64,000 nucleotides of DNA from Candidatus Scalindua japonica. GTDB taxonomy: Bacteria > Planctomycetota > Brocadiia > Brocadiales > Scalinduaceae. Shown here piece by piece: positions 30,917-44,808 of this stretch. Under the pieces are notes generated by a model. That model was not told the origin of the DNA, searched no databases, and saw only the letters and a program-made list of their open reading frames with translations. Each line of letters opens with the position of its first letter. The first letter of the stretch is position 1. The stretch is taken from positions 1-64,000 of the forward strand of contig NZ_BAOS01000014.1 in NCBI RefSeq assembly GCF_002443295.1, in the 5' to 3' direction. Both the position numbers and the translations under genes were made by a program.

Positions 30917-31528
30917 ATGGAAAAAAACAAGAAAACAAAGAGCCTGAAAGAAGAATGTTTTGTTATAGACACAAGCATTTTTACTAATCCGGATGTATAT
31001 ATTACTTTCGGTAGAACACCAACTACCGCTCTGAAAAATTTCTTGAAACTCATAACGAAACTGGATGTCCCTAATTTTTATATGCCTCCATCAATTTATG
31101 AAGAACTCATGAATTTTGTAGATATTGACAAGGTACCTAAGGATCTTCAGATCAGGATTTTTCAGAAACCTCCAAAAAAGTATCAGATGAATGTACCCTC
31201 TTTTCTGCTCTATGAATTAATAGAAGATGTGCGCCATCGAATAGATAAGGGGCTAAGAGTCGCCGAGCAGGCGGTGAGAGAAGTAATAACCGATAACGAA
31301 CCGGACACGATAAATAATCTCAGGAAAAAATATCGCGCCGCGTTAAGAGAGGGAATAATTGACAGCAAGGAGGACGTCGACTTAATTTTGTTGGCAAAGG
31401 AATTAGATGGTATTCTTGTTACTGCTGACAAAGGAATAATGACATGGGCAGATAAGTTGGGAATTCGTTATGTTGAATCACGTAATCTTCGTGGGATTAT
31501 AAACAGTTTAGGGTCCGAGAAAAAATAA
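30917..31528 (+). CDS. RNA ligase partner protein (PIN-like domain)
   Basis: 203 residues. It matches the family that occurs in genomes alongside the Pab1020-type RNA ligase (MJ_0950 / RNA ligase partner). The fold is PIN-like: the N-terminal [13 protein letters not shown] with D18, E62/E63 in YEELMNF, and a C-terminal [28 protein letters not shown] with D153, D155 and D171 give the acid cluster of a metal-dependent ribonuclease. The activity of the family has not been established to my knowledge. It converges on the RNA ligase gene; its last six codons lie in an inverted repeat shared with the end of that gene. Confidence 0.9.
31509..31528 (+). repeat. Inverted repeat, left arm
   Basis: TAGGGTCCGAGAAAAAATAA at the 3' end of the partner gene is the complement, with one substitution and one inserted base, of 31674-31694 at the end of the RNA ligase gene. 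The arms are 145 bases apart and each includes or abuts a stop codon. Confidence 0.9.
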
Positions 31529-31673
31529 TCTTACACTCTCACACCCCATCTTCAGGCCATCTTTGTCCTAACTTCATTCACCGAATCCTCAACGCAGCTT
31601 AGGCTGGGCTTGCGGTTTGACTCATTAAGATCGACCAAATCTGACCTAAAAGTGAGTGCGACAGTTTATAAAG

Positions 31674-31694
31674 TTATTTTTTTATCGGACCCTA
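31674..31694 (-). repeat. Inverted repeat, right arm
   Basis: On the minus strand this reads TAGGGTCCGATAAAAAAATAA, starting with the RNA ligase stop codon TAG. It mirrors 31509-31528. The bases between the arms carry no gene, though one minus-strand frame (about 31557-31668) stays open for 37 codons without a start. Confidence 0.9.
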
Positions 31695-32816
31695 GTCAAA
31701 GTGTGAACTACCGTCCCAGTGTTTCCGTATCACTTCATATGAAGGAAAACACCTCCTGACAATTTCTACATGCCATTGTCGTCCAACTTTATCCTGCCGG
31801 ACCAGATTGGCGTCTACTTTACATTTATGAAAATGCTCAAACAATTTCTTGATGTTCTGCTCTTTATTGAATCTTACTTTAAATCTTTCAGTTATCATTT
31901 TTCCTTCCGCTGCCTTCTTCAGATTTTCAAAAAGCGGCAGCAGCAGGGCCTCTCCTGTTTTTTTAAGAAATTCATCATTCAGAGGTAAGTCATTCTCCAA
32001 AAGATAAAAAAGCGACCTTAACATTCTATGCGTAAAAAATTCTGCCTGGTACTCTATCATTAGTGGAGAAGTTATCTTCATATCCCTCAAACACGATCCA
32101 ACGGTAACATATTTCACGGTTTTTCCAGATGGATCTATTGGTTTAAAGACAAGGCCCTCACAACCTTTTTCGTTCAAACCCTGAATGTGTCTCTTTAAAT
32201 CTATTATGTCAGAAGGTGCATAACTGCCAAATCTGGTAACTGTTGGTATTCCATATCTATCGAAAAACTCATATCTCTTTTCGATAGGCATTTGATGCTC
32301 ACTATTCATCTCTTTAATGTCAAATGCAAAAAAACTAACATCCTCGGTCACATAAGGAGGTGATTCTCCATTGTATGGATTTTCCGGCCCTGCTATTTCA
32401 CCACATACAATCAGTTCAGGGTTTTTTGTAAAAAAACTTTCATAGTTAAAAAAATCTCCCAATCTATCGGTACTGAAAGGACAGACATAACTACCTCTGG
32501 TGAAAGCAAATACCTTGCCCTGGACCTTAGCAATTCTAACATTATAGCCGTCCACCTTTTCCTCTACGTAAAAAGAATTTCCAAAAGCCAGTTTGATACC
32601 ATTTTCCAAATGCATAATTCTTGCTATACGCGGAAAGTCATAGATTATTCCCGAATAAGTTACCACCGTACCCTTTCTTAACTGTCCGGTTCTTTTCACT
32701 ACCCTGTAGTAAGTAATTCCGTCAAACTCATCGGGTATTATACTGTGATCCTCTAAAGACTCATTCCATAAGTCTTCTGTCATATTTACCTTTGAAACAA
32801 TTTGCGGAATTCTCAT
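31692..32816 (-). CDS. ATP-dependent RNA ligase (Pab1020 / Rnl3 type)
   Basis: 374 residues, usual for the archaeal Pab1020-type ligase. Nucleotidyltransferase motifs: K87 in the EEKVDGYN motif I (lysine that is adenylylated), FFAFDI (IIIa, about 162-167), EGLVFKP (IV, about 220-226), KYVT (V, about 235-238). A C-terminal helical domain specific to the family follows. The studied archaeal enzymes join or circularise single-stranded RNA. The bacterial role is unknown. Together with the PIN-like partner next door it forms a likely two-gene RNA-processing system, with the genes facing each other rather than in one operon. Confidence 0.92.
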   Translation of the reverse strand: MRIPQIVSKVNMTEDLWNESLEDHSIIPDEFDGITYYRVVKRTGQLRKGTVVTYSGIIYDFPRIARIMHLENGIKLAFGNSFYVEEKVDGYNVRIAKVQGKVFAFTRGSYVCPFSTDRLGDFFNYESFFTKNPELIVCGEIAGPENPYNGESPPYVTEDVSFFAFDIKEMNSEHQMPIEKRYEFFDRYGIPTVTRFGSYAPSDIIDLKRHIQGLNEKGCEGLVFKPIDPSGKTVKYVTVGSCLRDMKITSPLMIEYQAEFFTHRMLRSLFYLLENDLPLNDEFLKKTGEALLLPLFENLKKAAEGKMITERFKVRFNKEQNIKKLFEHFHKCKVDANLVRQDKVGRQWHVEIVRRCFPSYEVIRKHWDGSSHFD

Positions 32817-33199
32817 AATTTAAAATCATTTTTGAAAAAATATTTTTGTTATTATACTGCTCTTATTATATTATTAAACTTGTAACCTTCAACTTTTTTA
32901 ATATTGACAGTATTGCCAATCAAAAGTATAATTCTAAAAAATTCTTAATATATTGCATTTCTTAAAAAAACACATACGTAAAAGTATTTTACATATAGAG
33001 CAAGTCATATTATCCCAGTCTCCATATATATTAAATAAATTAGCATAATAGCTAGTTTGTTTTGTCATATTTCAAAATAACTGTAAAAGAATAGAATGAG
33101 ATTACCATACTACACATGGAAATAATGTCTGGTATGGCATAATATATGCGGTTACAATTTACATTGGCATATTAAGTTTTTCGTAGTCGGAGATATTTT
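32817..33199. other. AT-rich divergent promoter region
   Basis: 383 bases between the divergent RNA ligase and RCK-DHH genes. Very AT-rich with several TATA-like stretches; no ORF, RNA or repeat was recognised. A GTCGGAGAT ribosome site precedes the start at 33200. Confidence 0.5.
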
Positions 33200-34663
33200 A
33201 TGTACATTATTTTTGGTTGTGGTGTAACAGGAAGTGCAGTTGTCGACTCATTACACAAGTCCGGAAAAAAGTTGTTAATTGTTGATAAGGACGAGAATGC
33301 CTTGGCTCCGTGGAGGGAACAACAGGTTAATGTAGCTGTATCAGACATGGAATCCTTTGATGTGGACTCACCGATCTACAAAAACTCTAATATATTTGCA
33401 ATCCTCACGGGTGATACCGATGGCAACCTGTCAATGGTAAAAAGGATAAAGGAGAAGACGCCTGATAATTTTATCATTGTAAAAGCGTCTAATAAGGAAG
33501 AAGCAGAAGCACTGGAATCAAATGGCGCTGATGAAATATTGCATACAGGTAATGTTCTGGCTAAAACGGTATTATCTACTTTCGATACTTTCGAAATGGA
33601 CCATTCCGCTTTTACATTAGTTAACACGATAAAGGAATTGAACGGTAAAGAGATGGCAATCTTCCTGCAGGACAATCCGGACCCTGATGCAATAGCATCG
33701 GGACTTACCCTTAAATACATATGCAAGTACTGTGACGTCGAAAGCACACTCTATTATGGAGGAAATATCAGTCACCAGAAGAACAAGGCATTGATTAATT
33801 TGTTAAATATGGATTTAATAAGCATAAAGACGAAAGAAGCCGTTATGGAGGTAGTACGGTCTGCAGGCAAAATAGCACTGATAGAAGCATCAATTCCCTC
33901 AAGAAACAATGTCTTACCTGAAGATGTTACGCCCAATTTAATATTTGATCATCACCAGGTAGATATTAGTGCAGTTAAGGGAGATTTTGTTGATATCCAA
34001 ACTAACATAGGCGCAACCTCCACAATTATGACTAAATACATTCGGCAACTAAACCTTAAACCCGATACATCGCTTGCTACGGCTTTATTATATGGAATTC
34101 GCACGGACACAAAAGAGTTTACCAGAAATACTTCTCCAGATGATCTGAACGCAGCATCATATCTATCACCATTGGTAGATAACCATATTATGAGCCTGTT
34201 AGAACACCCCCCTATGAGCCTGGAAACACTGGATATCATCGGCAGAGCTATTAGAAATAAAGAAATCAGGGGTTCATACCTTGCATCATTTGTAGAATTT
34301 ATTAATGACCGGGATGCTTTGCCACAGGCAGCAGAAATGATGCTGCAGTTAGAGGGTGTATACACTGTTCTTGTTTTCGGGATAAATGATGATAAGGTTC
34401 AGTTATCAGCAAGAAGCAGGGATTCAAGAGTAAACCTGGGACTGATTCTGCAAAGCGCATTTGGCGAATTAAATTCAGGTGGTCACGCGACAATGGCAGC
34501 CGGAGCAATCAATCTTGGAATCCTTGGTGATGCGAACGACAGAACATCTCTTTTAAAAGTAACTTCTGATGCGGTCAAAAAAAGATTTTTTTCCTCAGTT
34601 GGAACCGAGTTTGAAGCGGAAACAATGCCAACAGATGAAGAATCTCAGGTGAACTTAGTCTGA
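33200..34663 (+). CDS. RCK_N (TrkA-N)-DHH-DHHA1 fusion phosphoesterase
   Basis: 487 residues. Residues 1-125 are a Rossmann RCK_N domain (FGCGVTGSAVVDS loop, acidic D29 at the end of the second strand) of the kind that gates K+ channels by binding NAD or nucleotides. Residues 150-340 are a DHH domain: QDNPDPDAIASG (D158, D161, D163), FDHHQVD (D250, H251, H252) and GIRTDTKEF (D303). Residues 365-470 are DHHA1, ending in SGGHATMAAGA. Motif II has IEAS where Asp is usual. There is no RCK_C domain and no transmembrane segment. The same fusion is known mostly from archaea. Related DHH-DHHA1 proteins cut c-di-AMP or nanoRNA; what this one cuts is unknown. Confidence 0.88.
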   Translation: MYIIFGCGVTGSAVVDSLHKSGKKLLIVDKDENALAPWREQQVNVAVSDMESFDVDSPIYKNSNIFAILTGDTDGNLSMVKRIKEKTPDNFIIVKASNKEEAEALESNGADEILHTGNVLAKTVLSTFDTFEMDHSAFTLVNTIKELNGKEMAIFLQDNPDPDAIASGLTLKYICKYCDVESTLYYGGNISHQKNKALINLLNMDLISIKTKEAVMEVVRSAGKIALIEASIPSRNNVLPEDVTPNLIFDHHQVDISAVKGDFVDIQTNIGATSTIMTKYIRQLNLKPDTSLATALLYGIRTDTKEFTRNTSPDDLNAASYLSPLVDNHIMSLLEHPPMSLETLDIIGRAIRNKEIRGSYLASFVEFINDRDALPQAAEMMLQLEGVYTVLVFGINDDKVQLSARSRDSRVNLGLILQSAFGELNSGGHATMAAGAINLGILGDANDRTSLLKVTSDAVKKRFFSSVGTEFEAETMPTDEESQVNLV

Positions 34664-44454: not shown

Positions 44455-44808
44455 ATGGATCAAGGTTTTTCCAAAAAAGAGCGATTGTTGAAACGAAAAG
44501 AATTTCAGCATGTCTTTGATAATGGAGAGAGATATGGAAACGATCAGTTAAAGATATACGCGTTATCAAATGGCGGATCTGTATCCCGACTGGGCCTCGT
44601 TGTGGGAAGAAAATTTGGCAACGCACCCAGGCGTAATAGATTTAAGCGAATTCTTCGAGAAGCATACAGATTAAATAAAAGTTTATTGAGCAGTGGAGCA
44701 GACATAGTTGTAATTCCAAGGCAGGGTTTAAAAGAACTCACATTAATGACAATCGAAGAAAAGTTCAAAATAATCCTGACACAAATTAACAATAAGTTAA
44801 AGAAATGA
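44455..44808 (+). CDS. rnpA: Ribonuclease P protein component
   Basis: 117 residues with the RNR signature VVGRKFGNAPRRNRFKRILREAYR in the middle, and an N-terminal KKERLLKRKEFQHVFDNG. The protein binds the RNase P RNA and aids 5' processing of tRNAs. Its stop overlaps the yidD start by 4 bases (ATGA), as in most bacteria. rpmH, normally directly upstream, is instead 14 kb away. Confidence 0.95.
   Translation: MDQGFSKKERLLKRKEFQHVFDNGERYGNDQLKIYALSNGGSVSRLGLVVGRKFGNAPRRNRFKRILREAYRLNKSLLSSGADIVVIPRQGLKELTLMTIEEKFKIILTQINNKLKK

Follow-up and report, generated by a model that had tools for sequence, protein, structure and literature searches.

Why would a cell keep a protein-only RNase P alongside the RNA enzyme, and does an RNA ligase encoded tail to tail with it act on the same RNAs? 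A pair of convergent genes in Candidatus Scalindua japonica bears on the first question and raises the second. We considered the pair in the context of a window of 64,000 nucleotides (contig NZ_BAOS01000014.1, positions 1 to 64,000), in which the features needed for the argument are the following.

30917..31528, + strand: HARP gene, 203 amino acids (aa), with matches to the TIGR03875 and PF08745 profiles
31511..31692, between the two 3' ends: MITE-like insertion of about 182 bp, with a near-perfect terminal inverted repeat, GGGTCCGANAAAAAATAA, and TA on both flanks
31692..32816, - strand: Rnl3-type ATP-dependent RNA ligase gene, 374 aa, with matches to TIGR01209, PF09414 and PF18330; nucleophile K87
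32865..32932: back-to-back promoter-like sites, TTGAAG-16-TATAAT on the - strand toward the ligase and TTGACA-17-TATAAT on the + strand toward the DHH gene, from a pattern match whose count is not above that in shuffles
33200..34663, + strand: gene for a TrkA_N plus DHH/DHHA1 phosphodiesterase (c-di-AMP phosphodiesterase-like), divergent from the ligase and adjoining it in most Brocadiales loci
44467-44787: rnpA, the protein of RNA-based RNase P (104 bits), about 13 kb from HARP

Identity of the two enzymes

Both open reading frames are intact and convergent, with their stop codons 163 bp apart, and both genes are under purifying selection, with a dN/dS of about 0.05-0.07 in HARP and of 0.08-0.17 in the ligase; together with the profile scores, this puts the reality of the two genes far beyond chance. 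The + strand product scores 209 bits against TIGR03875, 'RNA ligase partner protein' (cut-off 95 bits), and 210 bits against PF08745, PIN_5 (cut-off 27 bits). Its neighbor scores 318 bits against TIGR01209 (cut-off 137 bits) and 94.6 bits against PF18330, Lig_C, and is also matched by PF09414, RNA_ligase. The pair almost certainly consists of HARP (homolog of Aquifex RNase P), an RNA-free RNase P, and Rnl3, the Pab1020 family of RNA ligases.

The solved structures matched by HARP are all named RNA-free ribonuclease P (7e8j/7e8k/7e8o, 7f3e, 7og5, 8ssf and others), and the best of these matches is 7e8k, with an E value of 1e-108. This entry holds PbHARP, the enzyme of Planctomycetes bacterium GWF2_40_8, whose complex with pre-tRNA-His is 7e8o (PMC9051087). 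The window protein is about 85% identical to PbHARP from end to end, the basic N-terminal extension included. Pre-tRNA cleavage by PbHARP, which is weak under some conditions, is abolished by D151A, D155A and D173A and also needs several arginines (PMC9051087). With an offset of two, the three aspartates correspond to D149, D153 and D171 of the window HARP, which, like D18, do not vary among 29 sequences. The arginines implicated in pre-tRNA contact or activity are likewise invariant in this set: R106, R114, R121, R136, R140 and R144, corresponding to R108, R116, R123, R138, R142 and R146 of PbHARP. In other words, the two proteins have all of the catalytic Asp and pre-tRNA-contact Arg residues in common, and the window HARP differs in its last few residues, which have been altered by the MITE-like insertion. 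We conclude from its sequence that the window HARP is an RNA-free RNase P, predicted to oligomerise and to cut the 5' leader from pre-tRNA, both of which have been demonstrated for the ~85% identical PbHARP. As a separate observation, HARP of a Brocadia-type genus (g4; loci L003, L006, L013, L017 and L031) carries an insertion of ~40 residues after R121; the first of these residues, KKIDKGLK, look like a repeat copy of the RHRIDKGLR helix just before them.

The ligase matches the structure of Pab1020 (E 6e-77) as well as other Rnl3 structures. Little or no variation is seen across 27 ligases at K87 (EEKVDGYNVR), D166 (FFAFD), E220 and K225 (EGLVFK) and K235 (KYV). K87, in KVDG, is the counterpart of the adenylated lysine, and adenylation is lost in MthRnl when the equivalent lysine is replaced (K97A). 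Motif V is K235-Y-V237, with valine as in Pab1020 and without the usual second lysine. The full-length match, the nucleotidyl-transferase motifs and the Pab1020-type C-terminal domain are all common to the window protein and to Pab1020 and MthRnl; where it differs is in having a bacterial and probably mesophilic host. By these motifs, the window ligase is predicted to be an ATP-dependent RNA ligase of the Rnl3 family.

A preliminary description of this DNA had proposed a Pab1020-type ATP-dependent ligase facing a PIN-like partner in convergent order. The TIGR01209 score and the Pab1020 match bear out the ligase assignment, and the two genes lie as described, both being real open reading frames. 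The five conserved acids reported for the partner understate the case, in that many more than five positions are invariant among the 29 sequences, D18, D149, D153 and D171 included. Loss of the catalytic acids across homologues had been raised as an argument against the proposal; we looked through the 29 HARP sequences for it and found the acids invariant. The statement that the partner's activity is undescribed has to be withdrawn, since the partner is HARP, for which structures have been solved and, in the case of PbHARP, pre-tRNA cleavage has been shown (PMC9051087).

Co-occurrence, gene order and loss

The association of HARP with Rnl3 was reported by Seshadri and Gopalan (mBio 2025; PMC12153264): of 751 genomes with HARP, 89% also encode Rnl3, HARP accompanies the ligase in every genome that has one, and 80% of bacterial HARP-Rnl3 pairs are co-localised, typically bidirectional. 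Among 392 Planctomycetota genomes, we find full-score HARP and full-score ligase in an identical set of 29, with no ligase occurring without HARP. This count leaves out G102, a 79% complete genome whose HARP is fragmentary and lies at the end of a contig, and a few weak PIN or ligase-like matches in other Planctomycetota genomes. Since 28 of the 29 genomes belong to Brocadiales (anammox), the window's own order, they represent few independent events rather than 29. The named relatives are records of Candidatus Scalindua, Brocadia, Kuenenia and Jettenia, which are mesophilic anammox bacteria.

These mesophilic hosts would weaken an extreme-environment rationale for keeping HARP and Rnl3. The published analysis treats an extreme-environment host as a proposed correlate of the pair rather than a defining feature; its text emphasises extremophiles, and Brocadiales is not among the bacterial orders that it names (PMC12153264), whereas among the anammox bacteria surveyed here the pair is close to fixation. 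In other respects the window pair resembles the published one, having the same two families co-localised on opposite strands, and it is a well-conserved new example of that pairing, not a new system. The preliminary description was thus right that the two families co-occur, and the survey of Planctomycetota that it suggested places them together in the same 29 of 392 genomes; its view of the system as little known is overtaken by the 2025 publication (PMC12153264).

The arrangement of the two genes is as consistent as their co-occurrence. A ligase lies beside HARP at 50 of 80 named loci. Every one of these 50, drawn from Planctomycetota, Nitrospirota and Deltaproteobacteria, is convergent, and in about half the 3' ends overlap. 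The remaining 30 comprise 6 genomes with a ligase elsewhere and 24 with none in the assembly, these last being mostly Nitrospirota and often drafts. The two genes are unlinked in three genomes of one Kuenenia-type genus (G088, G195 and G239), which retain both, and in G267 and G308 the two genes are also not on the same stretch. The dependence is therefore one-sided: the ligase is found only where HARP is present, and HARP is often found without the ligase. We also considered a phage or plasmid origin for the pair and rejected it, as no relatives were found on viral contigs and plasmid matches were distant haloarchaeal ones only.

Several losses within the group can be followed in some detail. 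HARP of Scalindua SCAELEC01 is followed by a decayed ligase 3' end only, the S. arabica ligase has a large internal deletion, and the ligase of G322 has a frameshift that may stem from an assembly error. In G300 (L040), of the same genus, a single deletion that starts near codon 54 of HARP and ends shortly upstream of the ligase has removed the rest of HARP and the whole ligase, sparing both flanking genes and the neighbor's promoter-like site. These cases show that a host can do without the pair and that the ligase tends to disappear before HARP, in agreement with the weaker purifying selection on the ligase than on HARP.

One-sided dependence points to a ligase that works after HARP, and it argues against a toxin-antitoxin-like pair in which the PIN nuclease would damage RNA and the ligase repair the damage. 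This idea, raised in the published analysis (PMC12153264), draws on the kinship of PIN and VapC domains, on the adjacency of the two genes and on their loss as a unit in G300. We nevertheless consider it improbable. Nuclease-only genomes are not expected of a VapBC-type system, and HARP-only genomes are found here: where no ligase adjoins HARP, 24 of 30 named genomes have none anywhere in the assembly (mostly Nitrospirota drafts), SCAELEC01 keeps HARP with the remnant of a ligase, and it is the ligase that evolves faster and tends to go first. Convergent genes are also unlike the usual co-transcribed toxin-antitoxin operon, and HARP is a site-specific pre-tRNA enzyme. Its complementation of an E. 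coli RNase P defect (cited in PMC12153264) points to HARP being harmless there in the absence of the ligase.

RNA-based RNase P and the order of cutting and joining

In Aquifex, HARP has taken the place of RNA-based RNase P as the main tRNA 5' processor. The window's host, unlike Aquifex, also has the RNA-based enzyme, with rnpB on contig 13 of the same genome (289 bits) in addition to rnpA in the window. Because the cell keeps both rnpB and rnpA, HARP is auxiliary here and not the main tRNA processor, and we rejected replacement on the same evidence. The observation that would best suit replacement is the failure to find rnpB in three HARP-positive drafts (G370, G374 and G390); searching them at the DNA level with rnpB of the window genome gave no match either. 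These drafts still contain rnpA along with HARP, however, and because rnpA is present there, missing draft sequence is a likelier cause than loss of rnpB, which we found in the other 37 of the 40 genomes examined. Two of the three drafts fall in the window's own family. CCA is encoded by 23 of 43 tRNA genes, about half, which also speaks against HARP as the main processor, a reading that we regard as highly improbable; encoded CCA slows Hydrogenobacter HARP about 10-fold (PMC12153264).

The chemistries known from homologues allow a sequence of events to be sketched. HARP, as a metal-dependent PIN endonuclease, would cut the 5' leader off pre-tRNA or a tRNA-like RNA to leave a 5'-phosphate. Rnl3, using ATP and an adenyl-lysine at K87, would join the 5'-phosphate end of an RNA to a 3'-hydroxyl end, in most cases that of the same molecule. 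The ligase would in this way operate downstream of HARP, either sealing or circularising a subset of the 5'-phosphate RNAs that HARP generates or mending RNAs after their cleavage by HARP. We suggest that HARP is probably an auxiliary RNase P with Rnl3 acting after it on its products, the order following from the one-sided dependence described above. For the narrower proposal, that the two enzymes are coupled on shared RNAs, we judge the chances to be roughly even. A joint role in RNA repair, processing or circularisation, close to that put forward in the preliminary description, is plausible.

The separation of the two genes in the Kuenenia-type genomes and in G267 and G308 counts against coupling, as do the weak pre-tRNA cleavage by PbHARP under some conditions and the small number of independent events behind the Planctomycetota cases. 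No growth phenotype resulted from knocking out the ligase in T. kodakarensis, or HARP in H. volcanii or M. mazei (PMC12153264). It is conceivable that there is no direct cooperation, that HARP serves as a backup RNase P while Rnl3 repairs or circularises RNA independently of it, and that the two stay together because they travel as one cassette. Such an arrangement would fit the patchy distribution with its losses, the unlinked genes of Kuenenia-type genomes and the presence of RNA-based RNase P throughout. Yet both genes are retained even where they are unlinked, and no HARP-less ligase occurs in 392 genomes, which suggests a shared need, and the tail-to-tail order is kept across phyla. We therefore view separate roles as a serious alternative but an unlikely one.

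If HARP and Rnl3 do act in succession, on which RNAs might they do so? Roles proposed for the pair are C/D-box RNA maturation, RNA repair, 5'-adenylation and a toxin-antitoxin pair (PMC12153264). Circularisation of archaeal C/D-box RNAs would not explain the pair in anammox bacteria. To our knowledge these archaeal substrates do not exist in bacteria, and for this reason we raise, as a tentative and rather doubtful extension, the idea that anammox HARP and Rnl3 might constitute a cut-then-circularise pathway for an undiscovered class of bacterial circular RNA or circularised tRNA-like RNA.

The intergenic insertion and the neighboring gene

The HARP and ligase reading frames overlap at their 3' ends in most Scalindua, whereas in the window they are held apart by the MITE-like insertion. 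It has replaced the last HARP codons, so that the protein ends in ..NSLGSEKK rather than the ..NSLIKM/VKM of relatives, and has left the ligase C-terminus beside it intact. Three diverged copies of the element, with 72-74% identity, are found elsewhere in the genome, on contigs 13, 16 and 28. The OFTM1 isolate carries a related element at this position, and the insertion may be shared between OFTM1 and the window. Although the 163-bp gap folds strongly (z -4.0), we rejected it as a structured RNA substrate because it is a MITE-like repeat with related copies at other places in the genome and because most congeners lack it. A search for known RNA families across the whole window returned three tRNAs only.

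The DHH gene next to the ligase was considered as a third partner and rejected, since it occurs in members of the order that lack the pair and survives the G300 deletion. In the other phyla examined it was not seen adjoining the pair, and we treat its position beside the ligase as synteny. In G088, where the ligase is unlinked from HARP, the ligase still lies beside the DHH gene.
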